64,000 nucleotides of DNA from Sinohyriopsis cumingii (Eukaryota; Mollusca; Bivalvia; Unionida; Unionidae), in contig CM068824.1 in the NCBI GenBank assembly GCA_028554795.2, positions 157,340,789-157,404,788 on the forward strand, written 5' to 3'. Position 1 is the stretch's first letter, and every line of letters starts with the position of its first letter. Under the pieces are notes generated by a model. That model saw nothing but the letters and a program-made list of their open reading frames with translations. It was not told where the DNA came from and made no database searches. The position numbers were made by a program, and so were the translations under genes. Below, in pieces: positions 1,699 to 46,726 of the stretch.

Positions 1699-2426
1699 TT
1701 AAGTCGAGGACGGAGACGTGTACAGGACAGGCCCTCCGTCTTGGCACCAGTGGTGAAACAAGTGGGTACGAAATCGCAAATCCTCGGGGGTCGTAGGTTT
1801 CAAATCGATGAGTAAATAGGCGTGTGGAGTTTGAGTGTCATCGTCGTACGCCTGAGTCAGCCAAGGCGTTCCTAACTGTTTGGCTAAGATTTGCACTTGC
1901 GATTTATCTCGAGGGCTTTTAAACAAGACCACGTAATGCGCATTGAGACTGATGGTGCGATGGGCTTTACTTTGTTGAAACAAATTTTGGGTGATGTAAA
2001 CGACACTGGCATTACGGTGATGCCCTTTGCGCGTGAACCACAGTTTAATTTCTTCTTCGTCTTCTCCTAACATGTCGTCAAAAATGACCAAATGGTTTGA
2101 CGGGAGTCAGAGACGATGCCGTCGTCTTCTTTAGGAATGCCTTCCACAAACACGATGGAATCGCCTTGACTTTCTCGCAAGAGGCTGTACGCCGATTGCC
2201 ACTCTTTGTAACACCACACGATCCGTTGAGGTGGCCGATCGATCAAATGATGTTTATGTTCGATCAAACGTTTGACGAATTCGGTTTTGCCTGAACCGCC
2301 AGGTCCAGCAATGAACATGTTAAAGGGATGGCGAAGATACAAAGCCTCCCAACTGGCACGATCTAAGTGTTCGTCGATGACTTTGAAAGTGGAGGAAGAG
2401 GGAGCAGAGACAGCAGAGGTAGCCAT
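1699..2426 (-). pseudogene. A32/FtsK-HerA-like packaging ATPase, one frameshift
   Basis: The first half starts at ATG 2426 and carries a Walker A P-loop GPGGSGKT at about residues 42-49, followed by 'RIVWCYKEW' and 'IVFVEGIP'. The second half, in another frame (2091-1699), begins with Walker B 'VIFDDM' and continues with 'VVYITQNLF', a sensor-type TQN motif, and 'RDKSQVQILAKQLG'. This is the A32-type genome-packaging ATPase of Polinton-, adintovirus- and NCLDV-like DNA viruses, which drives DNA into capsids. The two frames meet near 2085-2110, where a single-base shift breaks the gene; an intron there is less likely because the halves abut in the alignment. Flanked by a TATA box at 2471-2481. 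Confidence 0.8.
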
Positions 2427-2891: not shown

Positions 2892-5800
2892 CTATCGATC
2901 TTGCCTAGGGTTCCTTTTTATATACAGACCAATACCGACGTGTCCATACGGTAAGGTGAAATGATTGGGAAGTCGCACTCGCTTCTGGTACACGATTTGA
3001 TAGACTTTTTCCAAGGGTCGACTGACGATGTGGTGAGTGGGTAAACGTACAATTTTGTTCGGATGATAGGTGGTCACTTTAAAGTTTGCATCCTCTCCCG
3101 ATTGCAAGGCTTCTTTCAATACCCCAAAGTTCACCACAGGACTGGTACGATAATTCAGAGTCAATCCTTTCACTTTACACGTCGTGTGCAATTCTCCTTG
3201 TGGGTCCCGGTATTCGTAGCCGTAATTTTTAGGACCACCACTGACGAAACTTAGAATCTTGTCGTCGGGATGTTCATCTGTCCAGGCTCCTAAACGGTCT
3301 CCTTCGATGTCAGGGTGCTGTTGACTCGGGTGATGGATGTAAATGCAACTGTCCGTGTCAAAGTACAGGACACGTTCCCCTAACAGTTCTAAAGCTTCGT
3401 ACAATTTTAAGCGAGCATGAGCTGTCACGTAAGCCGCAATGATGACATTTCCAAAGGGGTCGTCTTGTACAAAGTCCAGATCTTCTTCGTAATTGACCAA
3501 GATCAAATCCTCGCGAACGACGTCCACGTGTTTAATGTATTTGGTTTTGTCGTGAATCATCTGAAAGTTGCGGGAAGCTTCTGTCAAATATTCCGTCTTG
3601 GGTAAACACGGTCGTTGTGCCATTTTACCCCACAAGCAATTTAACATCACTTTGGCAAACGACCGCCTGCCTTCGTTTTTCTCGATGTGGTCTAAAGAGA
3701 TGCCTTCTTGTTCATAGTATTTCTCTTTGAATGTCTTTTCGTCTTCGGAAGTGAGACACCAGGAAGGATAGCCGCTGGCTTCTTGCTTCAGTTTCAAAAA
3801 GGCATCCACGTAGTCGGCGAAAATGCCTTTCTGCGTGGGGTCACCCTTGTGGTATTGTTGTGTCTTGGGAAAGTGGCAAATTTCGTACACTTCTAACAGT
3901 TGGTATCCCATGTCCAGAGCTTTGAACAATTCTACGCTGATCCAGGTTCTCGTCAAGGCACGTTCTTTCTGAGTGTGCTGACAAGGTTGGTCTTGGTTGC
4001 ACGTTTTGGCACAAGTACGGCACAATGGAAACATCAGTTTGCCTTGAAAATGGTGAGGTAAGACGGGATGGTATAGGTTCGTGGGAGGCAAAACTTTACA
4101 CTTGATCAAGCCTTCGTATTGTCGAATGTTTTTCAGGTCGATGTGTTCCGTGAACAATTGTGGGTGCCCTGCAGGAAAGGGACACTATTTGCACACGTAA
4201 GGATACAGCGAACACACGTCCAAGTATTTGATTTCTTCTCCTTTCTCTTCGTCGGCTTGGTACAGCAAACAGGTGGCATTGGTCCTTCCTCCGTACAAAC
4301 TATCCCTCGGGTTTAGGGGGTCCATCAGCTTGTAACTTTCCACGGCACGTTTAAACTCGGGATCGGTTTTCATACGGTGATCGTACTCGTGTTCCCACAT
4401 TTCCACCACTTGGTATCCTTGCTGTTCTAACTTTAGGCGTCGCTGACAAGTGTCCTGGTACAAGTCTTCCATGGTTCGTTGTAAAAACTGATTTTTAGTG
4501 CTACGATCAGGGTAACAGACGGGACATCCGTGAAATAAGCAACCGTTACACTCGTACACGATCTTGGGGTTTTCTAAGTCCCAGCCATCGACCGGATACG
4601 TTCCGATGGTCTTTTCGTCTCCTCCGTTGCGGGCATGCTGAATCCATTTGTCTTCCTTGTCGCACAAGTAATGTAACCAACGTAGGGCTTTGACCGAGTA
4701 TTGACGTTTGACATAGTGAGTCGTTTCAGGACTGATGACAGCCACGGTGTTTTCAGGCATGAATCGTTGTCGATACACTAAGGAACACGCTTTGGCAATG
4801 GTGCAAGCTTCTTTCAAAGGATCGACCCCTCCGTGTTCCATGAACAGTTCTCGAAATTTTCCACAGCAACGCCGTAAAATGTCCACGTCAGAACGACAAT
4901 ACTTTAGCATTTCTTCCTGAAAGTCGAAAGGGTCCGAGGCGTGAGTCTGGTACTAAGCGTAGAAAGCTTCTCGTTGTTCGGTACGCATGTTGTCGGGGTC
5001 GTAATAGTGAGCCTCAGGCAAATGGGGTAGAACGGCGTGTTGATTGGCTTCCGTATTGAAAAAGTGAGGAAAATAACCTTTAGCCATTTCTGTCATTCCA
5101 AACGTTTTAGGCATTCGACTCAAAGGCATGGCCAAGTAACTCATCGAATCTTTAAACTGCACTTGTCCCACTTGCATGAAAATGATTTTGACTCCGTTCA
5201 AAGTGACTTTAGGACGTTCGGTGCCATGTTCCGTATAGTACCTCAAAAGAAACTGTCCATCGTATCCGGAGAAATTGTGAGCCATCACCGTGGCATGACG
5301 ATGACAATCTCCGTAACGTTCGATGCCCTCTTTGCTCCACGTCTTGTCGATGGGATCTAAGACCCATTGGGGAAAATCGGCTAACGTGTTCGGTCCTCGA
5401 AAGATTTTTTCACGCCGTCCGGGAATCTTGCTTCAGTGAGGGCAATGACTGAAGATAGGTTCTTGAATGCACTTCTCGCACGCTCGATGAGCCACGCAGA
5501 AATTAGGAATGTGAATGCCAGTCTCTTGCATGCATTCGAAATCGAAAAAGATGAAATTGCCTTTCTTCTTGTGACCGTCCTCTTTCTCTGGTGGGGGTTG
5601 GTATTTTTGCACGTAGCGTTGGTGTTCGAAGTCCACGATGTGGTGACAAATGTGACATTTTTTCTTTCCTGAACATACGTGTGCCTTGGTATTATTGGTA
5701 CGTGGGCCTTTTCGACACGTAGGGCACAATTTCAGCAGTTGACAAGCACATTTCTGCTGTGAACCTTGCGTCTTGAGATGTTGTTGGTAACAGGCAGGGC

Positions 5801-6965
5801 TGACAAACGTGCGCAGACAAGCAGGACATTGTACTCTTTCTTGCCCTTCGCACAGACAGGGTGGAGAGGCCAAACATCCTGGGCATTTCCATCCGCAATG
5901 TTTGTGTTGCTCTCGATTGTTATAGCCATAGTCACATTTCTCACAGTAATAACTGTATCCCAGGAATCCAGTGATAGTGGTAATGGTATCGAAATGGTCA
6001 TCGTGATAATAGACATGAATGTATTTTCCGTCCTTAAAGTCTTTCCCTCGAAACAACAGAGGTCCGCGCATTTCTTGAGGGTACACTTTCAAGGTGTAGA
6101 GTGGAGCTAGGACATCTTGCAATTTCTGCATCTCAGGAATGCCACAGGGTGTGTCTTTGGACAGTCCGGCTTGTTGTAACAGGAGTTCTGCTTCGTTTCG
6201 TTGTTTGGCTCGGTCGGATCGTCGAATAGTTTTCCAGGCTCTTTTCCATTCTAACGTGTCGTTCTTGTTGGCATAGGTTCGTCCCACCACGATGGCTCGG
6301 GCTAAACACATCTGGTCTTGAGAATTGTGAATTTGGACGAGACTCTTTTTGGTGTTGCGAAGGTCGTTCACCAATAACACCTTATTGCGTTGTCCGGTCC
6401 CTTGAGGAGGAGAGACGTGGGCCATTTTCAGTGTGGCTTTACCATCGGTGATGTCAAACTGGTCATTAGATTGTTGTACGTGTTGAATCTTGTCCATGAT
6501 TTTGGAAGGGGTTAGTTCTGCGGGTCTGCTAAACTCGATCCAAACAGGGGATTTCAAGCTGTCGTGTTCTATGGATAGTGTCAAGCGATCGTCTTCTTTG
6601 GGTTGACATTGTCGCTTGAGTGCGGTGAGCAAAGAATCCCACATCTCGATGATAAACCCTTCTGCTTTCTCCAATGGTACGTCGGACTTGAAATCTTTAA
6701 ACTTCACTGTGTAGGTGTACGCCGTGGTTCTAAATTTTCTAGAGGATCGCTTTTCCGTCTCTCGAATGGAATAGTACTTTTCAGGGTTGACTAAGAGTGG
6801 TGAACTTTGTTGAGAGGGTTCGGATTCTGGTTCACTCATGTCCTCTTCAAAATCACTGGCATGAATTTCTGCCAGGACTTCAGCTCTGGTACGAGGCGAT
6901 AGATCACGTTTCTGCCTCTTACTTTCTTCTTCTTCGTTCTTCTCGAATGAATAGGATCGTTTCAT
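2892..6965 (-). pseudogene. Family B DNA polymerase (protein-primed type), three in-frame stops
   Basis: A single 1,357-codon frame runs from ATG 6965 to TGA 2892-2894, broken only by TGA 5433-5435 (codon 511), TAG 4953-4955 (codon 671) and TAG 4185-4187 (codon 927). Domains in order: an acidic N-terminus; a basic N-domain; a Cys/His zinc-binding region (about residues 335-460, many CxxC pairs); Exo I FDFECMQ (about 475); Exo II AHNFSGYDGQF (about 560); Exo III YCRSDVDILRRC (about 688); motif A DVCSLYPY after YGGRTNA (about 918); motif B NCLWGKMAQR (about 1109); motif C YFDTDS (about 1201). This is a complete replicative PolB with proofreading, of the Polinton/adintovirus/adenovirus-related group. 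All catalytic motifs survive although the gene is dead as read. Confidence 0.9.
2914..2925 (-). promoter_or_regulatory. TATA box inside the last PolB codons
   Basis: Minus-strand TATATAAAAAGG lies in codons for GLYIKRN at the PolB C-terminus and 55-66 nt before ATG 2859, so coding and promoter sequence overlap. Confidence 0.5.
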
Positions 6966-7733: not shown

Positions 7734-8372
7734 TTATTGGCAAATTGAAAGGCTATCTCTTTTCGAGAGAAGTGGGTGGCCCTGAAAAGGGCCTTTTTTG
7801 GTGTAGGGGTGAGTTTTAGCAATCAACTTTAACTGTCTTAAGCCTTTGCCACAGCCGAGGCCTACTTCTGATGATGATGATTGGGTTGAAATCACTAAGG
7901 GTGGTACGATAGGCTTAGTCACAGGGTTGGCGTGTTTAGCTCGGGAAGGTCGTATTCTCTTCGGTCGTGATAAAGAAGTCTGATACATTTGTTTCAGACT
8001 TCTTAACTCCGCTAAAATGTCCAACAGTACCGTAGCCGTTTGATTTTCACCCTCTTGTTTCTTTGCTGCTACTTCTTCTTCTTCTTGTTTTTTTCTTACC
8101 TCTTCTTGTTGCTGTTGCTGTTGCTGTAGGAGAAAAGCTTGTTCCGCTTCCTTTTGCCGTTGCATAAATTTCTCCAATTCTTCTTTCTGTCTCTGTCTAA
8201 AATTCTCCACTTGCGGTAATGAAGAATGAGACGAAGGTTCCGGAACAAATTCTTGCGAGGTAAGAAAATCCACAAAATCCCAATGTACCTCTTCTGAAAG
8301 TAAGTCCGGGTTCCCTTGGGCTGCCTCCACTGCTGGTGCACCCCAATGGATCGTTTTCTGAGTTTCCGTCAT
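7734..8372 (-). CDS. Gln/Glu-rich coiled-coil protein whose frame crosses a histone-type stem-loop
   Basis: A 212-codon frame from ATG 8372. The N-terminus (THWGAPAVE-type, with 'DLLSEEVHWDFVDFL') is shared with copy 2 at 38482. Residues 50-110 are Gln/Glu/Lys-rich with a run of eight Gln and are probably a coiled coil. Then 'LLDILAELRSL' and a basic patch RPKRIRPSRAKHAN suggest a nuclear protein. The frame does not stop before the stem-loop at 7778-7793 but reads through it and its downstream block before TAA, whereas copy 2 stops 30 nt before the hairpin. So the copy 1 C-terminus has probably lost its own stop. It is divergent to the 8592 gene. No known family is recognised. Confidence 0.6.
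   Translation of the reverse strand: MTETQKTIHWGAPAVEAAQGNPDLLSEEVHWDFVDFLTSQEFVPEPSSHSSLPQVENFRQRQKEELEKFMQRQKEAEQAFLLQQQQQQQEEVRKKQEEEEVAAKKQEGENQTATVLLDILAELRSLKQMYQTSLSRPKRIRPSRAKHANPVTKPIVPPLVISTQSSSSEVGLGCGKGLRQLKLIAKTHPYTKKGPFQGHPLLSKRDSLSICQ
7756..7764 (-). promoter_or_regulatory. Histone-downstream-element-like purine block
   Basis: Minus-strand GAAAAGAGA, 13 nt after the stem. This is the place and composition of the U7 snRNA-binding element of histone pre-mRNAs. Confidence 0.6.
7778..7793 (-). terminator. Histone-type 3' stem-loop (Q-rich gene)
   Basis: The minus strand reads GGCCCTTTTCAGGGCC: 6-bp stem, TTTC loop, A-rich 5' flank and ACCCA 3' flank, exactly the metazoan replication-dependent histone mRNA hairpin. 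GAAAAGAGA follows 13 nt later. Confidence 0.8.
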
Positions 8373-8591: not shown

Positions 8592-8822
8592 ATGTGGACC
8601 ACAGTTGAATCATCCAGCCTTGTGTCTTCAATGATGTTTAGGACGGACATGCGCATATATGTCCGGTCCAAGTGGACTGTTGTTGATAGGACAGATACTA
8701 GTCTATGGATGAGAAGAGTTTACATAGAAAGACAAGGATGCCTCAAGAGGGTACTTGTGTATGGACCTGCAGTTAGAAGGAGTTTAAGAAGAAGAAGATG
8801 TGACAGATGCCGTCTATGTTAA
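8592..8822 (+). CDS. 76-aa Arg-rich basic protein conserved in both element copies
   Basis: An intact frame of 76 codons from ATG 8592 to TAA 8820. The C-terminal half is strongly basic and well conserved with the minus-strand ORF 38020-38250: ERQGCLKRVL(V/I)YGP, then SLR-basic, ending C-x-LC; both products are exactly 76 aa. The N-terminal half differs. There is no signal peptide. It could be a small nucleic-acid-binding or zinc-binding protein (C-D-R-C-R-L-C end here), but no family is recognised and it is not a histone fold. The stop lies 24 nt before a perfect histone stem-loop, giving a histone-like short 3'UTR. Promoter: TATA at 8539. Confidence 0.65.
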   Translation: MWTTVESSSLVSSMMFRTDMRIYVRSKWTVVDRTDTSLWMRRVYIERQGCLKRVLVYGPAVRRSLRRRRCDRCRLC

Positions 8823-8846: not shown

Positions 8847-8862
8847 GGCCCTTTTCAGGGCC
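8847..8862 (+). terminator. Histone-type 3' stem-loop (76-aa gene)
   Basis: GGCCCTTTTCAGGGCC with 5' flank TCCAAA and 3' flank ACCCACA, matching the histone mRNA hairpin consensus in stem, loop and both flanks. It starts 24 nt after the stop codon. Confidence 0.85.
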
Positions 8863-8875
8863 ACCCACATTTCTC

Positions 8876-8884
8876 GAAAAGAGA
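8876..8884 (+). promoter_or_regulatory. Histone-downstream-element-like block
   Basis: GAAAAGAGA begins 13 nt after the stem and is followed by a conserved TTCGATTGCC. The same two blocks follow all four stem-loops in the window. Confidence 0.6.
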
Positions 8885-9345: not shown

Positions 9346-9819
9346 CATGTTCCTTCCTCATCATTTCCTGCTCTGAGAAAATGGTGCTTGCCACGATATT
9401 GATACCCCTACATACGTATGCAGATAATGTTGTGTTATTAATTGTATTTGTATGGCATGAACAGATATAGGTCAGTTTTGCTAACAAGCATTATTCAAAG
9501 AGTTCTAAGTTCAAATGTTTGGATTTTTGTAAAGTGACAACATCAACATTTGTTTAATCTAATAAAAATGCTTAAATATAAAAGCGAATACATCTACTAA
9601 ATTTCATTTCTCTACATAAGGTGTCGGGGGAGGGGTTTTGTTTGCCTTGGGGGTTGGGTTAGTTTGCTGTCATGCCTTTATCATTTCATTGTTTCAGCAA
9701 GTAATGTTTGTCAAAAAAGAATAATTCGAATAGATTTAAGCATCTTTTTTTTGACATATGTTACTACACTACTCAAAAGACCTTAAAATATGAACAGATC
9801 ATTTAAACAATAACATATT
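9346..9819. other. AT-rich sequence, nothing recognised
   Basis: No gene, hairpin or repeat family seen. Confidence 0.5.
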
Positions 9820-18700: not shown

Positions 18701-21700
18701 AAGGTTTCAGACCCCATAATGAATCCATGCTATAAGAACATGTAAGCACATTATTTAGTGCATAAATTTACTAGTAAGTATTATATCTTATTACTTGATA
18801 ATGATATTCATTAACGGTGGATAGTAAACCGCACAAAGCCACTTGCTAATGAATAAGCTTGCCACAGTGGGTGACATAGACAAGTGATATTAATACACAG
18901 TAATAATTCAGGTATCATACTATGCATTTCACGTCAAATATCATAGCAATACTATGTGCAGCTGCCTTAAAAATCTAGGAAGGTATCAAAGTACGGTGAC
19001 GATATATTAGATTAATATTCTGTCTGTTATCTCCTTGATTGTTAAATGGCGTGTTTTGACTTGAAAGCAGGCGTATATCTCTTCTTTAATATTATCTCAT
19101 TTTGTCAGTTACATCGAGGATATTGTATCATGGAAGTAGTTTCCCTGAACACTGTTATGAATAGAGCATTGTATCTCCACTTTCATTAAATACACTTTGA
19201 ACAGATTGTAAACGGTATAAATTCTCAAAATTATACAAATTATCAGTCGCGAACAAAAATTATATACAAAAACACAAGTTTTGTTCAAATATAATATGTT
19301 TCATACCTAGCTTGAAAACCACCGCTTTGCCACGAAATTATGAAGAAGTCGATGTTTGGTTATGAACTTATTTTCTACTATTCTTTATCATAGCTTAAAT
19401 AAACAATGCAATGGGCACGTTGAAACAAACACTACATTCATACTGTCTTAGGTCATGTCCATTTCAAATGATACTCATTTGGACAATGTATGACCTGTAG
19501 TTTCCTTAAAACATGATCAATTAATACAACCTTTCACTGTCAGACCCAGGGATTCGTTTTCGTTGTTACTTGGTATAGATATATAACACAGGATAATATC
19601 TCCGGCATAGTTGGAGTGTACAGTTGATTTATTAGGTAAATAGGACATATTTACAGTATATGCATATTGAGGTGAACATTCAACGCTAAAATAACAACTG
19701 ACAAAGACACACACACACATGTATATATATATGTATGTATGTATGCATGTATGTATGTATGTATGTATGTATGCAGGTATGTATGTGTGTATACGATCAT
19801 CCAGTGTCGTTTTTCTTGCTTCCATACAGTGTATACAAATCTTGGCAATGTATCAATTAATCAACTCGACATTATTGTGAATAATTTATTATTTAAAAGT
19901 TCTGGCTTGGAATTAATATGGTAGTCTTATGGAAACGAATTTCTACAATGGCCCAGAGCAGAATATGCAAGCAATAAGAGATATTCATTCAATCATATTC
20001 AATTTGAATTTGATTTACAAAGCTTGCAAATTCTTTAGTTTGTATCTATGTTTTAAAGTCTTTGGAATTTAATTTCAAGTTGTCGAGATACATATCTAAA
20101 TCTGAATTTCTCTAGCAGACGTCAATATAAACATTTTTCAAACTAGAATTCGGTTCTGAATACTAGATATGCATCAGGTGTTTATGAAACTTCTGGGTTA
20201 AAAATAAAGTTGGAATGTGTTGATCTTCCACCCTTCTAGTCTTTGCTTCCAATAGTAAATTTCTCCATCATTTGTCATCATTTGTCTGTCTCTTTCAATT
20301 TTCTTGATTCAGTTTGTTTGTGAATGAACTAAAGCAGCTATATCGTGCAACTGAAAGTTTATATGAAACCGTTAACGATAGAGACGAAGTAATTGTAAAT
20401 ACCGTTCTGATCATTGAAACATTTATTTAGGAGAATATTCATATGTTTTCGCCAATAGAAGTTACCCCGTGTAACTAAGTTGATACAACGTTAGCCGAGC
20501 GATAGAAGATACACTCTATGATAAAAGTAATAACTCAGGTCCCTCCAACAGCGAGATGCAAGTGACGGGGTAAGCGTATTTTCTTTAGCTGATTGTAAGA
20601 ATGGTAATAAATATATGTAAACGTATGCATCTTAAATTTCCTCAAAATGTACTTTCTTAGTTCTTCAATCCGTATGACATGTCTTGCACAACGTGATTCA
20701 CACCGAAACCGGAATTTCGAATTGCGTTGATTTCCAGGTGAAATCCATTGTATTTTTTGGATTGAATTGGCCCTATAGTCCAGTCCTTCATAATCAAAGA
20801 AGTAGAACTGAGTTGGATCAACATAGAAACAAGATCCATGCGCATTCACTCACATTATGACTAAATTTCAAACGACAATTCTTTTTTAAACTTATGTAGA
20901 TCGCGCGACTAAGTCAAAAGGCCGCGTGAGAATCTATGTGCAAATGATTATTGTTCTTGTGTATTGATAAATATATGGTTGTGAATTCATTTTGAATAAA
21001 ACATAAATTCATTCACATTGTTGTTGGTAACATCTTTTGTTATTTAACCTTGGGTAGTTAAACAAACTGAGCATATTATATAAATGTTACTGCATTTTTA
21101 TCGGAAAATATGAACTCGTTTTTCTCTGACAAGTACTGCGCGACCGTGCGGAGTGAAGTATTTTTGTTAGAAAAACACGTTCTTATTTCCTATACATATA
21201 TAGTAATCGATATTTATAACCTTCTTTGCCTTCAGCACTTTCAAATTTTGTCTGTTCATCATCTTCCGTTGTTTTAAGAGGCTCCTCTTCGTACTCAAAA
21301 TATTACACAAACATTATTGTGATCATTGTCATTAGAGATCTTGCTTACTAATCAAAGTTGTCTCCTTTTATATCTGATGGCATTTTCTCCACTGCAAACC
21401 TACATCTGTTCGCGTCATATTCCCGTGAGTGGTACAACATGTATCCGCTATTTACATCACAGGGGACTCTTCTTTCCAGCCTAATGCTGTTATCGACCGT
21501 GGTTTCTACTGTAGTGATGTTATTGACTTGGAATACCAGGACGAACTTTACTAAGCATATAATGCTTATCCACCGGCCTCGATAGCGAAGTTGGTTCTGC
21601 GTGAGAGTTTGCCCCCGTACCAGTGTGGGATCATGAGCGATTTAAGTGGAAAGTTGACTGAATGCACAAACATGGTTTCGAATCTGCGCCCGAAAATCAG

Positions 21701-31483: not shown

Positions 31484-34400
31484 GTGTATTATTCTCATAA
31501 TAATTGCTGTAAAGGTCATTTATTTAGTAATATTTTAAATACTAATTCTCCTTGATAGTATATTTACACTTTAAAAAAGATATTATTCATGTATAAAGTG
31601 TGGAAATTCGTGCAGAAAGTTTCAAGGCTGAGTAACCAATCCAAGTATGCATCACGTGATCTAATTTCTGATTAGTCAGTGATAACATAGCTGATATTGT
31701 TTTCGAGTTCACATTCTAGGATAAAATGCGTCGCAGTTTGAATTATATATTTGTTTTGTATATATGATTTCATTATGGAGACTTAGACATCAGTCACGGT
31801 CATTTATTTGTGTTTGCTTGTGGGGCTACATTCATTTAATTCATTCCTTCATTGGAATTATAACGTGTTCGATTTGCTTGAAACTTAAATGTATTGGTAT
31901 TAATTTGAATTAATTTAAGGAAATTTGGCTTTGTAACTTTATTGAAATTACCGTGAATTGATTTAAAGATGTTTTGGAAACATAGCTAGTTGGAATTACT
32001 GTTACATAAAGAAATATTTTATAGTATATCAATATGATTCACTCAGTGCTATTGGTACATAATTACATTAATGACATCATTCGGAAAACATTGGAACTCA
32101 TTCGGATTACTCGACACCTTTGGAATTTATAGAACATTTGGGACTTTAGGATTTAAATCACCAAAACGTAAGCTATATTTAATTCTTGCACTTAGTATTT
32201 TATGGAAATTAGTTATATTTTCAATTTTGCAAACCTTGCTGGTTTCGCAGTGTCTTGTAACTTATTTTAAGACAGTTGGTACGCAGCAACAAATACACTA
32301 ATAGAGAACATACGGTTCAAAATAATTTTTATTTACACCAATGAATCTAATTGTTTAGCAAATAACTGAAACAATTGTCCATTATACCCTTTAAGTATGT
32401 TTTCTAGTGACAAATCATGTCCATTACGCAACCAATGATAGTGTCATTAATTCAGTTTTGCCGAAGCATTTTTATGTCACTAACGTTTCCAGCCAGCTTT
32501 AGGAACTCCAGTATGGATTTATCTTTATCGTGAGATATTACACTTGACTTTATTCTCCTATTTAAAAATGACAAGACAAGTAGTTTACTATCAACATTCT
32601 GAAATTGTTTACACCGCTATCAAGTGATCTAAAAGAACAATAAAAGTATAAGTATGGCTTCACTATATTTCATCTTCAAATTACAGTTGCCATCTGAATT
32701 AAAGGGATTTGAAGGGAAACCTTTAGGCAGAAATATTTAAATGTCCTGATGTCTAAAATAAGCATATGTTAGTTTTCCAGCGAATATATTGGCGTTTATT
32801 ATTACCCATTCAATAGGTCATAGTATCATCGACTCCTACGCAATTTTAACTTTTTGAAGTCATTCATTATGTACATTATAATGTAACTTATTACACTGTA
32901 ACCTATTCGTTTTCCTTATTAGATCCTTTATGGTTTATAGAAGAGAAAAATATTTTAGAATAACCATGAATTCTTTGTGGTTTCACCAGACATTATCATT
33001 AATAATTTTAGCAATGCGATGGAAACTTACGATACTTTACAAACGGACAACGGAGCAAAACCAGAGTATGATGAACTTAAGTTTGAAAGAGGTAAAACTT
33101 TTCTGCAAATCTTTATTACAGAATTAACGAGTTCTCTTGTTTATTGACATTGATATATATTTTAATAAATATAGCATATGTTTTATTTTATTTACGTCAC
33201 AGTTCATAGCTTGGTAGATTTTAGTGAGTACTTGTTTGATTATGGAAAATCAGTGATGGGAAGGTATTTTTCAAGCATGTAATCAGCCAAAAATACAGGA
33301 GTCATTTGCGGGCCTCAAGGATTATTTTCGTAAAATGGACCCTCTCTCAATTTGTAACATAACTAAATGTTTGGACATTTCTACGTATAAGTGTTCGTTA
33401 GTTTGAGATAGGAGTACCTATGTCCATTAGACGTATGGGTCGTGTTTCAGAATAAGTGCATATAAAATACCAATTTAGGGCTTAGAAAAGTATAATTCAT
33501 CATTATAAAAGTCTCGTGCCCGTGTGGTCGTACGTTTGATTACAGGAATATTATGTGCGATATTAGTGCGTCCCCCTCCACTCCCACCTCAGTACCAATA
33601 TCCATTCGACAACAGATGTCTTGTGGTCATTGGAAATATAGTAGGTGTTCGAAATTATATGATTTGGTTGGTTATTCGATTCTGTTAGATCCATGGTTTG
33701 TTGCATTTTGCAAACTTAAATTTAAGTGTGTATACTAACATTCGTACTCATTTTAAACATAAATACTTTTTCTACAAACACATACGTCCCAAGTTTGCTT
33801 TGCACAATTTCAATGGTCAGTCTGGTTCTATCCAGATTAATTTGTAATATTCTCACGATTAAATTAGAAAGATGCAGTCATCCGTCGCATAAGGTTTTTC
33901 ATAAAATCGACATCACGCTTGCTTCTTCACTTTCACATCAATAATCATATGCTTGCAGTGCGATCAATAGCTTGTAACAGACCTAATACTTAAAATACTG
34001 TTGAATATATTGGTAAAGAAACAAATTGATCACTTTCATTATAGATCAATGTAATGTATTTTCTCCCTTGTTTGTATATTACAGTCATGTAATTAATATC
34101 CATTTACCGGGCTGGCTATATGAAATGATTTTGAAAAATTATGAATAACAGTTAGCGAAATATGGTATTATGCAACAACATGACTCAAAGACCACTGATC
34201 ACGAAATATACGAATTTTATGAGTGTCGCAACTTAGATTTTACTTTCCTACACATATAAACATGTATAAGTAGACGGATACGTAAGCACGAACATACATA
34301 CATACATACATACATACATACATACACAGACACACACACATACATACATACATACATACATACATACATACATACATACATACATACATACACAGACACA

Positions 34401-37189: not shown

Positions 37190-37834
37190 GAAGATTATAC
37201 CCTTTTTATCATAGATTTGTAGTCTTTATTACGTTCATGTATATTCCTTGAGCAATGATTAATTTTCCAAATGTAAGTAGTTTTAACAAGTGCAGAAATG
37301 AACGACATTTGTACGATACAGCTGTATTGATGGTACTCGAAAAGTTATATTTTGTTATTTATGTCTTCCTTTTCTCTTTCTCTTTTATTCCTTCTCCTGC
37401 ACTTTGGTATTCCTCTATTTCATTATCATGCCCGAACGTTTGCTTGGAAGTGTCATCTAGTCATTCATAAGAGACTACATTTTCGATTGCCGTTCTTTTA
37501 TTCAGGATGAGAAGTTTGGGCCTGGATAGCAATATTTTATTACTACACGAAGTGTAATATATCATTAGTTAACAAGCGCTCTTCTGCCAAAGTTAAGTAC
37601 TTTCGTTCGTAATCTTAAGTGTAGGACTGTACTGATCAGGAGGAGTTGCGGTGTCAACAATAAAACTTAGAATGTATGGTCAATAGGTGGCAATAATATT
37701 AATATTGATTCCTATGGTATGTAGCCGACCTGAAACCATGAAAAACTAGCTTCAAAATAAGAGTGCAAAAAGGAGGATTAAAGTCTGTATTGACGTCAAA
37801 CGATATAGTTTTCAGTATATGTGTCGGAAGTATT

Positions 37835-37926: not shown

Positions 37927-38019
37927 GTGTGTGTATACATATCGAAGGATGATGAATGTCCATTCATTAATCAAGAGCGACGTAACGCCCAGTGTTTTTT
38001 TTTGGTTAACATTATTCCG

Positions 38020-38250
38020 TTAACATAGAGAGCAAGGCATAGGTCCTCTTCTCTTCCTTAAACTTCCTCTGACTTCTGGTCCGTAGATAAGGACTCTCTT
38101 TAAACAGCCTTGTCTCTCCACATCAATCCATCTTTTCCAAACGCTCGTTACCATGATCCTGATAATTGTCCATGAAGATTTCACATACAGGGTAAGCACG
38201 TACGGAACAGCAGTGACGACACGAGAGTAGATGATTTTACATTTGGCCAT
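38020..38250 (-). CDS. 76-aa basic protein, copy 2 homologue of 8592-8822
   Basis: An intact 76-codon frame in an otherwise broken element. The C-terminal half matches copy 1: ERQGCLKRVL, I/V-YGP, VR-x-SLR-basic and a C-x-LC end. The N-terminal half (MAKCKIIYSRVV) is different. The region before the ATG conserves TATA and start-site words with copy 1. No stem-loop follows the stop: sequence after 38019 is unrelated, so the element is truncated here or the end was replaced. Confidence 0.6.
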   Translation of the reverse strand: MAKCKIIYSRVVTAVPYVLTLYVKSSWTIIRIMVTSVWKRWIDVERQGCLKRVLIYGPEVRGSLRKRRGPMPCSLC

Positions 38251-38481
38251 ATTTTGTGACGAGAACAGGTGATGGGAATGCAGTGAACTGTGGTTATTTA
38301 TAAGGGAAGTGTGGATGTAAACGACTTTAATTTACTCACCAATCCAAACACGAGTTACAAAATTCAGCCACAATACAAGGTCAGTATTCCAATCCGATAA
38401 GAGCGGACTGTGACGTAACATTCCCTATATAGACGCGCTAGCGTCGGTGCGCAGTCAATCCATGCGACACAGTTTTCAAAC
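38251..38481. promoter_or_regulatory. Divergent promoter, copy 2
   Basis: TATA for the minus gene (TTATAAATAA on the minus strand, near 38296), CCAAT at 38339-38343 and 38389-38393, a CRE-like TGACGTAA at 38411-38418 and TATA CTATATAGAC at 38425-38434. Order and spacing match 8373-8591. Confidence 0.6.
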
Positions 38482-39050
38482 ATGACGCAAACAAAGAAGA
38501 CGATGAATTGTGGTGCACCGGCCGTGGAGACGAAGAGCGACGGTATAGTAGCGGCTACCAAAGTCAGCACAGGCCTACTTCCAGAAGAGGTCGATTTTAA
38601 TTGGGATTTAGTTGATTTTCTATTCTTCTCAAGAATTTGTTCCGGTACCAGTACCTTCGCCACTTCCTCCTTCTGTACAACACGTGGATGATTTTAAACA
38701 GAGACATAAAGACAGAAAGAAGAATCCGGAACGTTTTATAGCAGCAGAAGGAAGCAAATCAGAAGAAACAGGGTCTAAGAGAGAGGGAGGGCAGAGAAAG
38801 TCAAACGGCGACGGTACTGTTAGACATTTTAGCTGAGTTAAGGAGTCTGAAACAAATGTATCCGACTTCTTTATCACGACCCTAGAGAAAAAGACCTTCC
38901 CGAGCCAAACAACCCAGCCCTGTTACTTCGTCTGCGATAACGCCCCTTGTGATTTCTACCAAATCATCATCGACAGAAGCCAGTCCAGAAGTAGTACTTG
39001 GCCGTGGCAAAGGCTTAAGGAAGTTAAAGATGATTACGTCCCGTTCCTGA
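38482..39050 (+). pseudogene. Q/E-rich gene, copy 2, frameshifted
   Basis: ATG 38482 starts MTQTKKTMNCGAPAVET, homologous to the 8372 gene (MTETQKTIHWGAPAVEA). Shared blocks continue across frames: EEVDFNWDLVDF, then 'FKQRHKDRK', then the end GRGKGLRKLKM. The Gln run of copy 1 is absent and the coiled-coil part is shortened. At least one frameshift (near 38615-38690) breaks it. The homologous frame ends at TGA 39048-39050, 30 nt before the histone-type stem-loop, which probably shows the ancestral stop position lost in copy 1. Confidence 0.65.
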
Positions 39051-39080
39051 GTTCGTTTGTTAAACAATCAAATATCCAAA

Positions 39081-39096
39081 GGTCCTTTTCAGGGCC
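39081..39096 (+). terminator. Histone-type 3' stem-loop, copy 2 Q/E gene
   Basis: GGTCCTTTTCAGGGCC: one C-to-T change still pairs as U-G. The 5' flank is TCCAAA and the 3' flank AGCCA. GAAAAGAGA follows after 13 nt. Confidence 0.75.
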
Positions 39097-39109
39097 AGCC
39101 ACTACTCTT

Positions 39110-39118
39110 GAAAAGAGA
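39110..39118 (+). promoter_or_regulatory. Histone-downstream-element-like block
   Basis: GAAAAGAGA, then TTTCAATTGCC, as in copy 1. Confidence 0.55.
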
Positions 39119-39417
39119 TAGTATTTCAATTGCCAAAATCAGTTAAAACTCAAAAGCCCTATTTTTACCAATGATGTACGTATGTGAGTGAGTGAGTGTG
39201 CGAGTGCAGGTTCTCAATCTAACAAAAATCAAAACCATGAGACACTTACATTTTCTGTCTGGTTTATTCTGGTACAAATTTTACAATCTAATTCACAGCA
39301 CAACACAACATTTTAAAATGTTCATAGACTTTTGCTGTGTCTTTGTTCACTCTCTCTGTTTTTTTTAAACATTCCTTCACTTTCCTCCAGTTTCTCCTCG
39401 TCGTCTTTTCTTCTCAT

Positions 39418-39770
39418 TTAATCTTTCTGGACGTGTCTGGGTTCTTCCTTTGTAGAAGGTAGCTCTTCTTCTTCCTGTTTGGACTCTCTCTCTTCTTCTT
39501 GATCATTTTGTTTATTAGGGCATTCTGAAGAAGAATGTCCTTTTTCTTGACAATGATGACAGGTATCTTGACTCTTGTTTCTTTTAACATCTATCGTGCT
39601 TTTTTGACGGTCCGGACACTCTGTTGTTCAATACCCTTTCTTCTTACAGATATAGCAAGTATCTTGACTTTTATCTCGAAAGGACGGTGAGTAGTTCGTC
39701 GCAAACCTCTGATAAGAAGTTCTATATGTGTCGGCTATTCCGTCGTTCTGCTCGGTTTGGGAGTGAACTG
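39418..39770 (-). pseudogene. CCHC zinc-knuckle gene, copy 2
   Basis: Knuckle 1 is CYICKKKGY, then TGA (39628-39630), then TTECP. Knuckle 2 is intact (CHHCQEKGHSSSECP). An acidic Glu-rich tail ends at TAA 39418-39420. The start codon position is ACG instead of ATG, with an early stop and a frameshift in the N-terminus. It is divergent to the PolB remnant as in copy 1. Confidence 0.65.
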
Positions 39771-39877
39771 AATATTGGAAGGGAAGACATATTCTCTTTA
39801 GATATAAGCTAGTCTGATATGGATATAAAGTGACCCGTGGCTTTTAAAATGTATTTATTTGACCTTTCGCAGTCAAG

Positions 39878-42740
39878 ATGAAACGATCGCATCATTTGTT
39901 GGAGAAGAAAGTAAGAGGCTGAAACGTGATTTTTCGCCTCGTACAGTTGCTGAAGTCTTGGAACATATTCATGCCAGTGATTTTGGAAGATGACATGAGT
40001 GAGATAGAATCCAGACCAAGAGAGTCCTCCTCTAAACATTTAGAACGACAGCTTACAGATACACAGTGAAGTGTAAAGATTTCAAGTTCAACGTACCGCC
40101 AGAGAAAGCATACGGCTTCATCACGGAGACGTGGGATTTGTTTGTTAACTACACTGAAACGACAATGTCAAGCCAAAGAAGACGATCGGTTGAGATTTTC
40201 CATTCATCACGACAGTCTGAAGTCCTCTGTTTGGATCGAGTTTGGCAGCCCTGCAAAAATGACAACTTCCAAAGTCATCGACATGATTCAACACGTACAA
40301 CAATCCAATGACAAGTTTCACATCACCGATGGAAACACCACACTGTTCATGACCCACATCTCTCTCCCCAAAGGGACCGGACAACGCACAAAAGTGTTAA
40401 TGGTGGACGAGCGCAGCCTCGTCAAAATTAACAATCCTCAAGACCAGATGTGTTTAGCCATCTTGGTGAGATGAAATTAGGCCAACAAGAACGACCAGTA
40501 GAATGGAAAAGATACTGGAAAAGTATTCAAAAATCGAACCGAACCATACAACAAAGGGAAGCAGAACTCCTTTTACAACAAGCGGGCTATCCAAGTATGC
40601 ACCCTGTCATTCCTGAAATGCAAAAAACAGGATGTCCTAGCTCCACGCTACACATTGAAAGTGCACCCTCAAGAAGTGTGCGGACCTTTGGTGTTTCGAG
40701 GCAAAGATTTCAAAGACGGAATATACATTCACGTCTGTCATCACGATGTACATTTCGATGCCACCACCAGTATCGCCGCATTCTTGGAATACACTTCTTA
40801 GTGTAAGAAATGTGACTGTAACTGTAATAATCGAGAGCAACACAAGCATTGTTGATCGAAATGCTCAGGATGTTTGGCCTCTCAACCCCGTTTGGACGAA
40901 GAACAAGAACGAGTGCATTGCCTAGCTTGTCAAGCACTTTTGTCAGACCTACCTGTTACCAACAACATTTGAAGACGCCAGGTTCACATCAGAATCGTAC
41001 TTGTCAACTCCTGAGATTTTGCCCTACTTGTGGACAAGTCATACGTACCAATAAGATCAAGGCACACATATTTTCAGGAAAGAAACGATGTCACATTTGT
41101 CACCAAATCGTGGACTTGAAACATCAATGCTACATTCAAAAATACCATTCCAAACATCAAGAGGAAGACTATAACCAGACGAAAGGCAATTTCATCGTTT
41201 AATACATGCAAGAGACTGGCATTCCCATTCCTAATTTCTGCGTGGCTCATCGAGCGTGTGAGAAGTGCATCCAAAAACCTATGTTTAGTCATTGCTCTCA
41301 CTGCCAGAAGATTCCCGGAGGACATGAAAAAATCATTCGGGCACCGAACACGCTAGCCGATTTTGCCCAGTCGATCTTAGACGCCATTGATGTGACATGG
41401 AGCCATGAGGACATCGAACGTTATGGAGATTGTCATCGCCATGGCTCACAATTTATCGGGATACGATGGACAGTGTCTTCTGAGATACTATACGGAACGA
41501 GGCACCGAACGTAATAAACTGCCAAGATAAGCAAGTGCTGCCGAAACACAATGACCTGGACGACATTCGACAATACGAAGGCTTGATCAAGTGCAAAGTC
41601 TTGCCTCCCACGGACTTGTACCATCCCGTGTTACCTCACCATTGCAAAGGAAAACTGATGTTTCCCTCGTGCCGTACTTGTGCTGAAACGTGTAACCAAG
41701 ACCAGCCTTGTCAGCACACCCAGGAAGAATGTGCCTTGACGAGAACGTTGGTCAGCGAGGCATTCTTCAAAGTTCTGGACATGAGATAACAGCTGCTAGA
41801 AGTGTACGAAATTTACCACTTTCCCAAGATAAAAAATACCACAAGGGCACAAGACTCGGAGTGGCATTTTCGCATACCACATGGATCCATTTTTGAAACT
41901 GAAACAAGAGGTCAGTGGATATCCTTCCAGGTGCCACACTCCCGAGGATCAAAAGAAATTCAAAGAGAAATACTAGGATCAGGAAAACATCATTTCAGAC
42001 CACATCAAGAAAAATGAAGGCAGGCGATCATTTGCAAATTGGCACAAAGAACGTGGTTCCCCAAGACAGGGTATTTGACAGAACCTTCTCGGTACTTCCA
42101 GATGACTCACGACAAAACCGGATACATGAAACACGTGGACGTCGTTCATGAATGCTAGATGTTAGTCAATTACGAAGAAGATTCGGACTTTGTACAAGCC
42201 GACGAATTTGGAAATGTCATCATTGCGGCTGACGTAACAGTCCATGCTCCTTTAAAATTGTACGAAGCTTTAGAACTGTTAGGTGATCGTGTCCTGTACT
42301 TTGACACGGACAGTTGCAGCTATATCAATCGCCCGGGTCAACGTCACCCTGACATCGATGGAGACCGTTTAGGAGCCTGGACAGACGAACACCAAGATGA
42401 GAAGATTCTACGTTTTGCTAGTGACGGTCCTAAGACGGTCCTAAAAATTACGTCTTCGAATACCGGGTCCCATAAAGAGAAATGCACACCGAGTGTAAAA
42501 CGAAAGGATTGACTCTCAATTAATGCACCAATCGAGTGGTGAACCTTTGGATATTGAAAGAAGTCTTGCAGTCTGGAGAGGATGGAAACTTTAAAGTCAC
42601 CACTTACCAACCGCACAAGATTGTATGTTTACCCACTCACCAAATCGTCAGTCCACCCTCGGAAAAGCTTTAGCATCAAATCGTGTACCAGAAGCGAGTG
42701 CGGCTTCCCAACCACTTCACGTCCATATTGGTCATCATGT
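39878..42740 (+). pseudogene. PolB remnant, copy 2, with large internal deletion
   Basis: ATG 39878 (MKRSHHLLEKK) aligns with the copy 1 PolB start. Homology runs, with many frameshifts and stops, through the N-domain, the zinc region (CPTCGQVIRTNKIKAH) and Exo I area to 41514. It then jumps to the equivalent of copy 1 residue about 940 (NDLDDIRQYEGLIKCK). About 1.1 kb, covering most of Exo II-III and motif A, is missing. Motif C YFDTDS survives near 42300. It ends near 42740, 60 nt before the next ATG, as in copy 1. Confidence 0.8.
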
Positions 42741-42800
42741 AAAAAGACACAACGTACAAGATCGATACTTCATTGTCACTACCAACACCAAGTGAGAAAG

Positions 42801-43400
42801 ATGAATCCTTTTAAACAGACGTCATTCAAGTTCGGTGATTATGATGATGAGTGTGATGCTGTGCCTTGCGATGAGAGAAATGCCGTTCTCTGTGAAAACA
42901 GCGATGCAGTAAAGCATCATGGGAAATTTAGTATAACTACTGCTATTACCATGCCTAGCATAGAAAGGGATGATGTGCGTGTCAAACCTGACGGATACGA
43001 AAGTGATGCCACTCGTGGACTCTTTATTGGTTTTCATTGTGGATGTCAACTATCACGTGATACCATGCGGCTACCACCTACGTAGGGATGTCATCCAAAG
43101 CTTAGCAAAGTCTTGCGGATTTCAACCTACCCTCATCGAAACGAACCTGTGAAAGACGCATATTCGTTCCCTGTGCGTTTGCCTGGATTCTGCTACTTCG
43201 AACGTCGATTCCAAACCTTCCAAGGAAGAAGGCCTAAATATCTAGGAGGACCTACCCCCGAATAGTTAGTCAGAGCCGGATTTTTCTACTTGGCGAAGGG
43301 GATAAAGTCAAGTGCTTCAGTTGCGATGTGTCACTTCACCAATGGGAACAAAAAGATTCGGTATAACCGGAACATCCTTGGGATCGAGTAATTGAAGTTA
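42801..43400 (+). pseudogene. BIR-domain (IAP-like) gene, broken
   Basis: ATG 42801 (MNPFKQTSFKFGDYDDE) begins a frame homologous at its start to the 54-aa gene of copy 1. After TAG 43083-43085 the same frame enters a BIR-type domain: RRFQTF (about 43204), LVRAGFFY after TAG 43263-43265, then, after a one-base shift near 43290, DKVKCFSC, LHQWEQKDS, TAA 43364 and PEHPW. Arg-x-x-TF, AGFFY, C-x-x-C, W and H are the BIR signature; the last Cys ligand is not seen. BIR proteins inhibit apoptosis and are often carried by large invertebrate DNA viruses. Copy 1 has no BIR at this place. Confidence 0.65.
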
Positions 43401-43407
43401 CATACCA

Positions 43408-43795
43408 TGTCGTTTAAGAAACCAGATTGGCTAGGAGTCAAACGTTGGACACCACCGAGACTAGTATTTAAACCCCATTTAAAAAAAATATTCAAGGATT
43501 ACCAAACGAACTACAAGAAAAGCTCTACAAGGACGTTTTGGCAGGAACTTGCCTGAGTAAAATCTCAACGGGTGATTGTAGAACGTTTGTGTCGAGAAAT
43601 TCACAAGAGGAAAGTCAAAAAAGTCAACAAAGCGTGTCAGATTTCTCCGGATTAACTGTGCGTTCATCCTATTATTCCGCTTCAGACCGTTTAAATCAGA
43701 AGATTTTATTAACATTCTTGACCGTTATCCTGAATGCCAGTGGTCAGAAAATGACTCATTATGTTCATTACTTTCGCTCGAGGAGAAGATTTTAA
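43408..43795 (+). pseudogene. Small gene with LPNEL motif (first of two)
   Basis: ATG 43408 (MSFKKPDWLGVKRW) leads, with a shift inside an A-run near 43480, into NIQGLPNELQEKLYKDV and a Ser-rich region. The NI-Q/R-GLP-x-E pattern returns in the next gene (43816). It resembles the start of an F-box (LPxEL...I/L) only loosely. No copy 1 counterpart is in the window. Confidence 0.4.
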
Positions 43796-43815
43796 ATAAA
43801 ATAATACTGACTGAC

Positions 43816-44076
43816 ATGATCATGGATACTTTGCAAGAGAACATTCGTGGTTTGCCTGTGGAGATAAGAGAATGCATTTACCGAGAGCTGGTCAAAATAT
43901 AAGTGAAAGGCAAAGAACAATTGCATCCGTTACGTCACCGGTGTTTAAACCACTGGTGCCTGAATGCTATAAAAAGACTGAATCGAGATGAAAGTGATTG
44001 AGACCTGATAGAAGAGCTCTTCAGAAAGGAAATCAAGACGGATAAATTAGAATGGAAGGAGAAGTACAGACTTTAG
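43816..44076 (+). pseudogene. Small gene with LPVEI motif (second of two)
   Basis: ATG 43816 starts a frame with MDTLQENIRGLPVEIRECIY, interrupted by TAA 43900 and a TGA near 43999, then a charged end. Tandem to, and patterned like, the previous gene. F-box-like at best; function unknown. Confidence 0.4.
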
Positions 44077-44081
44077 AAACA

Positions 44082-44120
<39 letters not shown>

Positions 44121-44266
44121 AGCAGCAGGAACCTGACAGAGGTTTTGTCGACTGCCGTGTAGACACCAAAGAGTTCTCCTTCTCTTTCCTAAGAAACAGA
44201 CGTATCCTGTGGGAAAGCCTGTTGCCAGACGGGGACGCAATCTTAGATGATCCAAGATTGCCATAG
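44077..44266 (+). other. End of the last copy 2 transcript, with (GA)n
   Basis: A GA run (44084-44119) lies in a frame-like stretch ending DGDAILDDPRLP and TAG 44264-44266, 18 nt before the stem-loop. The upstream part of this frame is unclear. Confidence 0.3.
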
Positions 44267-44284
44267 CTCCTCGTCCACAAAAAC

Positions 44285-44300
44285 AGCCCTTTTCAGGGCT
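44285..44300 (+). terminator. Histone-type 3' stem-loop at the end of copy 2
   Basis: AGCCCTTTTCAGGGCT: the first G-C pair has become A-T on both sides, so the 6-bp stem is kept. The 3' flank is ACCAAA. GAAAAAATA follows after 11 nt, then TTCAATTGCC. Confidence 0.75.
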
Positions 44301-44339
44301 ACCAAATACTCGAAAAAATAGATACTAATTCAATTGCCA

Positions 44340-46726
44340 ATGGTATGTTAGTAAGTTAAAAAAAATAGAAGTTTCCTTATAAGCACTTCATTTCTTTATC
44401 TTTGTAAGAATTGTGTCAATAAGCACATCATTTCCGTACCTTGTCAAATAGTCAGTGAGTTTTAATAGTAGTTAGAGTTTATAAGTAAAAGATGAGTAAG
44501 TGTTTCTTTAAGTCCACGTGATCTATGTACTGATATATTTTAAACATGTGCGAAGATAGGAAGAAAAAATACGTAAAATATTTCACCAATAACGTTCTAC
44601 ATTGAAGCATTACAATGAGATATCACCTTACCAGAAAGATCCATTTCGATTTATGGTAAAACATTATTTGGTTCCTGACCTGAACATGAATTTGGTGAGT
44701 GCTCTACCTTCCAATTGAATATTATACCGATTATAATACCCGATAAACACGAAACGGATGACGAAAGAGACAACGCATTAATTTCCGTTTTGCGAACAGA
44801 CACAAACAGGCAGTACACCCATACTTTTACCTATCTACACGTATACACCTCATCGATAGATAAAAATATTCATGTGATGCTAACATTAGCCGGTGGTTTC
44901 CTGCCTACTGTCAGGGACGTATCTCATAGGCTTAAATTCCTGATTTAATACCTTTTGACTCGAATATTACGTTTTTCTTTGCTTTGAAATTGTAAATAGC
45001 TAACTCATTAAAACGTAATCCCAGTATGACAATACAACGAATAAGAACGATACGGTTCGATGCTAATACCATACAAGCTAAGTTGTAGTTTGCTTTGATG
45101 TAAGTGACCTTACACCATACCTGTCCACTTTCACACAGGGAGGTAAAAGAAACCTCCCGATTTTTGGGGTCGCTCCACGCCTACCTCCCGATTTCATAAT
45201 ATCTTCCTATTTTTGCAGAGAACTCCCGATTATTACATTATGTCTTCGATTTGCATTTCTTCTAAACAAGAAAAGACCTACATGGTCTGTTTTATCACCT
45301 GTGAATTATTGTTGTGACGAACTTACTTTACTATAAAGAATTCGCTTCTTCACTAAATAGAATGTTACGTTTAAACATTATTCACGTAAATCATGGATTT
45401 TTTCTCACCTCTACAATAATACAAAAATAAAAAAAATAAACCACAAGGAAAAAGTAAACCACAATAAAATCGTCCACAATTAATTTCAATCCCAAGAATG
45501 ATCACTATGAATGATGTAACTCCATTTCCTATAAAGCCATTTCCACGAAAGAAACTTACACGAATGAACACCTGACATTTTTATACCGTATATACCAATG
45601 ATAATTGCCATCGTTAAATTAAAAGAAGTAATGAAAATAAATACCACGCAGCAAATGGGTCCTTAAAAAACTAATTCAGAACACATTTTTTCATAATAAA
45701 CAATACTAAATGCTTTACGAGTTGACAATAAGGGAATAAGGTTGAATATACAAAGAGGGGAAATAGTTGCCACATGTACGGTACCATGAGGCTGGCTATT
45801 TTGGTATCTTGAGCTCAACAAAATTTTGAATCCTTTATTTGCCAATCAAATGCTGGAGCTTGCGTAACACGCAATGTTGTAGAACGTGGTTTCTTTGAAT
45901 TATGACGGAGGGCTAGTCATTTTCACAAAAATGTTGCATTGATAAGGATTAACTTTTAATTAGTCGCGCTGGTTTTCTTGCTTGTTTATTTAAGACTTAT
46001 CTTTTGCTATTGTGCAGTTGGACCACAGCTGACCAGAATATGAAAATAGGGAAAATGTTAAATTATTTTATTTACGTGCCTTGTACAATTAAACATACTT
46101 GCCTTTTTAAAAATATTACCTCAGTTTGTAGGATCGTTTATATCATTGAAAATGAGTAACTCGTGAGCGTGTGATTCAAAGTAATTGCAACACCTATTAA
46201 GGACTAGCTGAAATGTTATCGGGAAGAATGCAATTTAGTCAAAACAATGAATAAAGCAAAATCTGCATCTATTATGTTTGGGAATAGGTAAGGATTTAAG
46301 TGATGCTATGCATGTTTTGCACTATGTAAATACTGTCCATTATAGTTCAGCATGGTCTCCCTAGTAAACTCAACTAACCCGCGAATTATGAAGTCTGTTT
46401 GTACCTTTAGTTAACTTCGTGTTGGAGAAATCAGAAAATATGCACATGCAAAATAATAACAAAATCAGTCATAGTAATGTGTAGCAGTTTAATAATGGTT
46501 GGGTTACCGAAAGATACTCTTTTCTTACATGCCTATGTCTTAGGACACAGAATAAAAAATATTGTTTCGTGTCCCAAGATTTACAGCCATTACAGTATTC
46601 AGCAAAAGGACCTAAAAACTGTAAAGTTTACACATTGGCCCACTGATAAGCCGATCTCCCTTTCTTCCAGGACATTATTTAACCTAACTCATTCGGCTTA
46701 TACTCAAGTATACACGGAATATATAT
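44340..46726. other. AT-rich intergenic, half of a dispersed duplicate
   Basis: 44533-44960 is repeated in diverged form at 47444-47790 (for example GATATATTTTAAACATGTGC and CCTGACCTGAA...GGTGAGTGC). A hairpin GGGAGGTAAAAGAAACCTCC lies near 45140. No gene seen. Confidence 0.45.

Follow-up and report, generated by a model that had tools for sequence, protein, structure and literature searches.

Histone-type 3' end signals behind five short terminal genes of a Polinton/Maverick element in Sinohyriopsis cumingii

Histone-type mRNA ends are formed by SLBP, which binds a stem-loop, and by the U7 snRNP, which pairs with the HDE; the RNA is cut between the two. Such cutting yields an mRNA without poly(A), with regulation tied to S phase (PMC2781718; PMC9756948). 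The stem-loop of the histone 3' UTR is represented in Rfam by the model RF00032 (Histone3), which has a gathering score of 34 bits. Mavericks, on the other side of the comparison made here, are reported in PMC10294476 from every mollusc genome analysed there. Here, we describe a mollusc element of this kind in which short genes end in histone-type signals. The window, i.e., the whole stretch of 64,000 nt that was analysed, is G000:C1:157340789-157404788 of a 2.90 Gb genome.

The window opens within an element that we call copy A. It is 17,388 bp long, runs from L039:958 (= G000:C1:157332746) in the locus directly to the left up to window position 9345, and carries most of its genes on the minus strand. 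These limits were drawn because both ends start with AGTA and CATGTT stands on either flank. A target duplication of 6 bp is typical of Polinton/Maverick elements. The terminal inverted repeats of about 510 bp (L039 951-1466 versus window 9350-8838) are 94.6% identical, and Pfam detects an integrase (rve, 1.4e-14) with a chromodomain (Chromo, 1.5e-7). A 413-aa protein of copy A has no Pfam match and 982 relatives; the species-named ones among the 120 relatives listed are mostly from bivalves (Mercenaria, Crassostrea, Ostrea, Saccostrea), with one from a gastropod, which points to a bivalve as the probable host. Its F54H12.2-like relatives we take to be Maverick capsids. By its repeats, target duplication, integrase and PolB, copy A is a Polinton/Maverick; it also has an ATPase-like ORF and the 413-aa protein, a putative capsid protein. 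The first-pass annotation had assigned the hairpin-bearing genes to an element with PolB and an A32-type ATPase; PolB was found by Pfam, and the ATPase-like ORF stays below the cut-off. The features of copy A are as follows, those of genes 1 to 3 being located in L039:

1..9345, minus strand: copy A, right part, with terminal repeats, AGTA ends and target duplication
1699..2426, minus strand: two ORFs, one of them ATPase-like (FtsK 4.1e-4, A32 0.0038, both below the Pfam cut-off), without hairpin
2892..4910 (2892-4034 and 4185-4910), minus strand: DNA polymerase B pieces (Pfam DNA_pol_B_2, 8.1e-9 and 2.6e-9), without hairpin
5433..6965, minus strand: 510-aa ORF upstream of PolB, without hairpin
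7734..8372, minus strand: gene 4, 212 aa in copy A, where the frame reads through the hairpin
7756..7764, minus strand: HDE-like GAAAAGAGA of gene 4, 13 nt past the stem
7778..7793, minus strand: stem-loop of gene 4 (Histone3 38.4 bits, fold)
8592..8822, plus strand: gene 5, 76 aa, TATA-like box 52 nt before the ATG, relatives across the genome
8838..9345, plus strand: right terminal inverted repeat; it contains the gene-5 hairpin, 9 nt from the inner edge of the repeat
8847..8862, plus strand: stem-loop of gene 5 (Histone3 42.5 bits, fold), 24 nt past the stop
8876..8884, plus strand: HDE-like GAAAAGAGA of gene 5, 13 nt past the stem
9346..9351, no strand: target-site duplication CATGTT (6 bp), partner at L039:952-957, read from the sequence
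L039 1418-1462, minus strand: hairpin of gene 1 (141 aa), Histone3 39.2 bits, stop 24 nt before
L039 2129-2174, minus strand: hairpin of gene 2 (102 aa), Histone3 31.6 bits, stop 29 nt before
L039 2954-2999, minus strand: hairpin of gene 3 (122 aa), Histone3 31.0 bits, stop 37 nt before

Four histone-type hairpins had been noticed in the window from its letters, and all four were recovered at the same places, with four matches of at most two mismatches compared to none in 100 shuffles (expectation 0.00). The 16-nt hairpin GGCCCTTTTCAGGGCC is present exactly at 7778-7793 (minus strand) and 8847-8862 (plus strand). At 39081-39096 (plus strand) it has one change, which yields a G-U pair, and at 44285-44300 (plus strand) two changes, which together yield an A-U pair. 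Each of the four folds into a 6-bp stem with a 4-nt loop. The Histone3 scores are 42.5 bits (8847), 38.4 (7793), 31.1 (44285) and 24.6 (39081); two of the four thus pass the gathering score, and the two that belong to a second copy, copy B, lie below it. The GAAAARA block downstream was likewise found at the distances first noted, 13 nt (8847, 7793 and 39081) and 11 nt (44285). The stop triplets that had been noted 24, 30 and 18 nt upstream are present as well, but of these only the first is the end of an open gene (76 aa); the genes at 39081 and 44285 have decayed, and the 120 nt upstream of these two hairpins contain no end of an open frame of at least 50 aa. That the genes in question are not histones is consistent with the Pfam search, in which genes 1 to 5 had no match over the cut-off. 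Matches to microRNA families in the window (19694-19799, 34258-34665, 37828-37960 and 46708-46803) are below the gathering score and apparently represent simple repeats.

The element carries more hairpins than the window displays, since three others lie in copy A just left of it (L039, minus strand). Copy A therefore has five hairpins, each behind one of five short genes near its two ends and all five in the sense orientation of their gene. Those of genes 5, 1 and 4 score over 34 bits, those of genes 2 (31.6) and 3 (31.0) under. Behind the core genes of copy A, the Rfam scan of the window and L039 gave no Histone3 match. The hairpins of genes 1 and 5 are located at the inner edge of the terminal repeats, and those of genes 2, 3 and 4 outside the repeats. 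A scan of 24 other copies found the gene-4 stop exactly 21 nt upstream of the hairpin in 18, five of which belong to one tandem array; among the remaining six, the frame runs through in one, two are without a 50-aa frame, and in three the stop lies 44-105 nt upstream. Genes 1, 2 and 3 resemble one family by eye, their N-terminal halves being alike, and more relatives occur in other subfamilies (L039:1482-3400, L005, L008). The C-terminal motif CVCGARPGRC of gene 2 is also found in P0123-P0125. Poly(A)-type A[AT]TAAA motifs within 250 nt (none of five hairpin genes, two of twelve core genes) make an uninformative comparison.

The same signal is found in the host itself. The host histone genes, which we take to be correctly named from their proteins (H2B from its C-terminal peptide), end in GGCCCTTTTTAGGGCC (H3 and H4), GGCCCTTTTCAGGGCC (H2B), GGCCCTTTTAAGGGCC (H2A) and GGTCCTTTTCAGGACC (H1). 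The H2B hairpin is identical to the hairpins of element genes 1, 4 and 5 in 16 of 16 letters. The host HDE core, GAAAAGA or GAAAAGG, follows at 13, 13, 13, 14 and 14 nt, and the GAAAARA of the element at 13 nt, once at 11 nt in a decayed copy. From stop to hairpin, the distance is 28 nt in H3, 27 in H4, 35 in H2A, 38 in H1 and 34 in H2B, compared to 21-37 nt in the element. As far as the letters can tell, the interpretation of the first-pass annotation is thus supported: the element signal corresponds to the histone 3' end module of its host in sequence and spacing as well as in its place behind the stop. At least 150 histone-domain matches (scored of 662 candidates) represent a repeated host histone cluster. 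The host histone loci L045-L074, L079 and L104 show repeats of about 8.27-8.29 kb, mostly on small contigs among those listed.

The likeness may extend beyond the HDE. A caveat raised at the outset, namely that the four sites share longer homology including TTCRATTGCC, is resolved in part, as this block has counterparts at the same place past the HDE in host H2A (CATCAATTTTGCCA) and H2B (TTTCAATTTTG); the sites' lack of independence stands. Since a similar block lies behind H2A and H2B, the shared stretch may belong to the histone 3' module or to a captured host piece, and need not be just a repeat of the element. Over the 30 nt past the HDE, five host and eight element modules reach a summed local similarity of 273, where 1000 shuffles average 231 and reach at most 272, in a test devised after the sequences had been inspected. 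Taken one by one, with only H2A convincing, the value was reached by 3 of 1000 shuffles for H2A, 95 for H3, 231 for H4, 430 for H2B and 714 for H1. This similarity would agree with an origin of the module in a host histone gene, or with a third functional block. Behind the host HDE, what may be a third conserved block reads TCAATTTTGCCA in H2A and TTTCAATTTTG in H2B.

Conservation was assessed over 25 modules (5 from the host, 20 from the element). In these, 96% of 150 stem cells are paired, and at most 65% when the stem is slid. Of the 25 modules, 18 open the stem with G-C and 6 with A-U; the third pair is C-G in 22, U-A in one (host H1) and U-G in one. All six A-U sequences come from genes 2 and 3, and because of this confinement the A-U first pair may go back to one event only. 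Host H1 has the other two-sided change, and the number of stem pair types is not above that of shuffles (453 of 500 reach it). In a set of ten representatives of element lineages, the stem-loop is 91% identical, followed by the HDE (84%), the spacer (66%) and the 19 nt past the HDE (51%); one of the ten (L146) was picked, after its hairpin had been seen, from the eight gene-5 relatives described below. In gene 2, copy A and L005 differ at 0.556 of synonymous sites, and the dN/dS is 0.20 in this comparison and 0.21 between copy A and L008. Judged by these rates (dN/dS about 0.2), purifying selection acts on gene 2, the hairpin of which holds 15 of 16 letters between copy A and L005. For gene 1, 0.204 of nonsynonymous and 0.857 of synonymous sites differ, and for gene 5 (copy A versus B) 0.343 and 0.842, the synonymous sites being saturated in both cases. 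The hairpins are not independent of each other: those of genes 1 and 5 lie in terminal repeats, and genes 1 to 3 look related. Gene-to-gene copying inside the element may explain part of their sameness.

The second copy in the window, copy B, belongs to a diverged subfamily:

38005..44342, plus strand: copy B, a second, decayed Polinton, 67-81% identical to pieces of family-A copies
38020..38250, minus strand: copy B gene 5, open, with neither hairpin nor HDE behind it
39081..39096, plus strand: copy B gene-4 hairpin, G-U pair in the stem, HDE GAAAAGAGA at 13 nt
44285..44300, plus strand: copy B gene-3 hairpin, A-U first pair, GAAAAAA at 11 nt

With the protein of copy B gene 5 as query, 150 places were listed (149 plus the query), and the 3' ends of eight, picked by protein match alone, were examined. 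The Rfam model detects the hairpin in five of the eight diverged relatives (E <= 0.014, two over the gathering score), but it is absent in L149, where the HDE is kept. Two further relatives have a damaged stem at the same place, and GAAAAGA occurs in six of the eight. As five of eight relatives keep the hairpin, and L149 and copy B gene 5 are without it, the signal belongs to the gene yet is missing from some copies.

Database relatives are few, three for gene 2 and two for gene 5. P0122, a 133-aa database protein related to gene 5, continues by eye into QKPFSGP, which equals the translated hairpin; this reading-through suggests that a relative of the element, from a different data set, has the hairpin too. 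Scans of viral contigs yielded no relative. Four relatives of the 413-aa protein, capsid proteins with 26-41% identity, were found on contigs of bacterial MAGs (L075-L078); no Histone3 match occurs on these contigs, and the terminal genes may lie off them. Two of the four are named as Escarpia/Bathymodiolus symbionts, and the Polinton-type capsid relatives are probably contamination from the animal host.

Across the genome, a strict pattern, in which the stem core is followed by ACYCA, eight free bases and GAAAAGA, is matched exactly at 29,921 places and nowhere in the reversed control; this is a count of modules, not of whole elements. All 40 of the strongest Histone3 matches examined are located on element genes 1, 4 or 5 and none on histone genes; eight top matches, whose ORFs were judged by eye, are also element-type gene ends. 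These 48 were taken from the 75 matches that were scored out of 589,472 candidates, and because they are ranked by hairpin score, the 40 out of 40 tell which genes bear strong hairpins, not how well the hairpin is retained. Five near-identical copies with a period of about 11.85 kb lie at G000:C7:136330626-136378424 (L015-L019, L040-L043). A viral concatemer was considered for this array and rejected, the repeat unit consisting only of the right Polinton part plus other sequence. Evenly spaced copies of gene 5 and gene 2 (about 21.1 and 21.5 kb) at G000:C9:84679622-84743294 and G000:C15:19902423-19967241 are likely tandem arrays with the element.

Searches for the host processing machinery were weak. 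The U7 snRNA model RF00066 gave no match among 65 scored of 801,960 candidates. Patterns built from features of known U7 RNAs were used in addition. The first, TCTTTN{1,9}AATTTNTCTAG, has 272 places versus 278 in the reversed control; 6 + 10 of its places were examined and none is U7-like, the best (L084) reaching 21.0 of the required 34 bits in Rfam, without a 3' stem. The second, TCTTTTCN{0,9}AATTTNTCTNG, has 240 places versus 74 in the control. Seven of eight places examined, plus L086 from the first pattern, share a coding context, by eye the integrase gene of the element, and were rejected as U7; owing to this shared context, the excess is not attributed to U7. For SLBP, PF15247 had no match among 14 candidates in a likewise weak search, introns perhaps splitting the domain.

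We take as established the sequence of the signal, its position, its match with histone genes, the conservation of stem-loop and HDE over their surroundings, the constraint on gene 2 and the number of modules. On this footing we consider it likely that the Polinton took over the histone-type 3' end formation of its host for its five terminal genes, with SLBP/U7 cutting and S-phase mRNAs as the presumed outcome. For the capture from the host, the cutting, the lack of poly(A) and the expression in S phase, we infer the following course. Most likely, the 3' end of a host histone gene was captured by the Polinton. The captured module would then have been copied from gene to gene within the element and kept by selection. 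Host SLBP and U7 snRNP would cut the element transcripts a few nt past the stem, and the products would be short mRNAs without poly(A), stable and translated during S phase, the time at which the element can make copies of itself.

A histone 3' fragment could also have been captured once and multiplied passively with the element, without any role in RNA processing. The five modules are indeed homologous beyond hairpin and HDE, two of them sit at terminal repeats and are open to homogenisation, and some copies miss the hairpin. We nevertheless regard such hitch-hiking as improbable: a useless fragment is unlikely to hold its register behind five genes, and all five show a histone-like stop distance (for gene 4, this applies to 18 of the 24 other copies and not to copy A), while stem-loop and HDE are kept where flanks and the synonymous sites of gene 2 diverge. 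Still harder to believe is that the hairpin acts as DNA within the terminal repeats, in replication or integration, and not as RNA. The position of the gene 1 and gene 5 hairpins at the inner repeat edge would agree with this, but genes 2, 3 and 4 carry the hairpin outside the repeats, all five copy A hairpins are sense-oriented, the HDE is kept at 13 nt although it has no expected part in a DNA hairpin, and the same module stands on host histone genes.

A further possibility, tentative and rather doubtful to us, is compatible with the takeover of histone-type end formation by the terminal genes. Histone-type ends might be used in dividing cells or embryos and poly(A) elsewhere, for which there is a precedent in one human H2A mRNA that uses both end types (PMC9756948); or the copies might soak up SLBP and U7 and disturb the histone supply, in line with 29,921 modules in a genome that also has a repeated histone cluster. 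The possible silence or decay of many copies speaks against this.

If the takeover is real, some 30,000 signals would make the element a major potential customer of SLBP and the U7 snRNP beside the histone genes. A histone signal on non-histone genes of a mobile, virus-like element would break the rule of this signal, and would account for the way in which an element that replicates itself keeps its genes in step with DNA replication. These genes would escape RNA libraries made by poly(A) selection, and Polinton activity in animals may therefore be underestimated.

Among the papers listed by searches of openly licensed full texts, none deals with histone-type 3' ends of viral or Polinton genes. 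We are inclined to see here, with some reserve, the first described virus-like DNA lineage that would make its own non-histone genes into histone-type mRNAs, by capture of a host 3' end, coupled to S phase without poly(A). Adintoviruses, a family of viruses, are close to Polintons. Some adomaviruses encode a histone-like protein, Histoid (PMC11071296, whose main text has no match to stem-loop or polyadenyl); that is a protein, whereas the feature of the present element is an RNA end signal. Compared to the mollusc Polinton/Maverick, the element is alike in size, inverted repeats, 6-bp duplication, rve plus chromodomain, PolB and ATPase-like ORF, and adds five short terminal genes with histone-type ends. 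Compared to the histone 3' UTR stem-loop of RF00032 with its HDE, it likewise has stem, loop, A-rich/ACCCA-type flanks, an HDE at 13 nt and the position past the stop; it differs in that the carriers are non-histone genes of a mobile element, with stems GGCCC/GGGCC or AGCCC/GGGCT. Element and host histone genes thus allow the same signal to be compared in two genomic settings.
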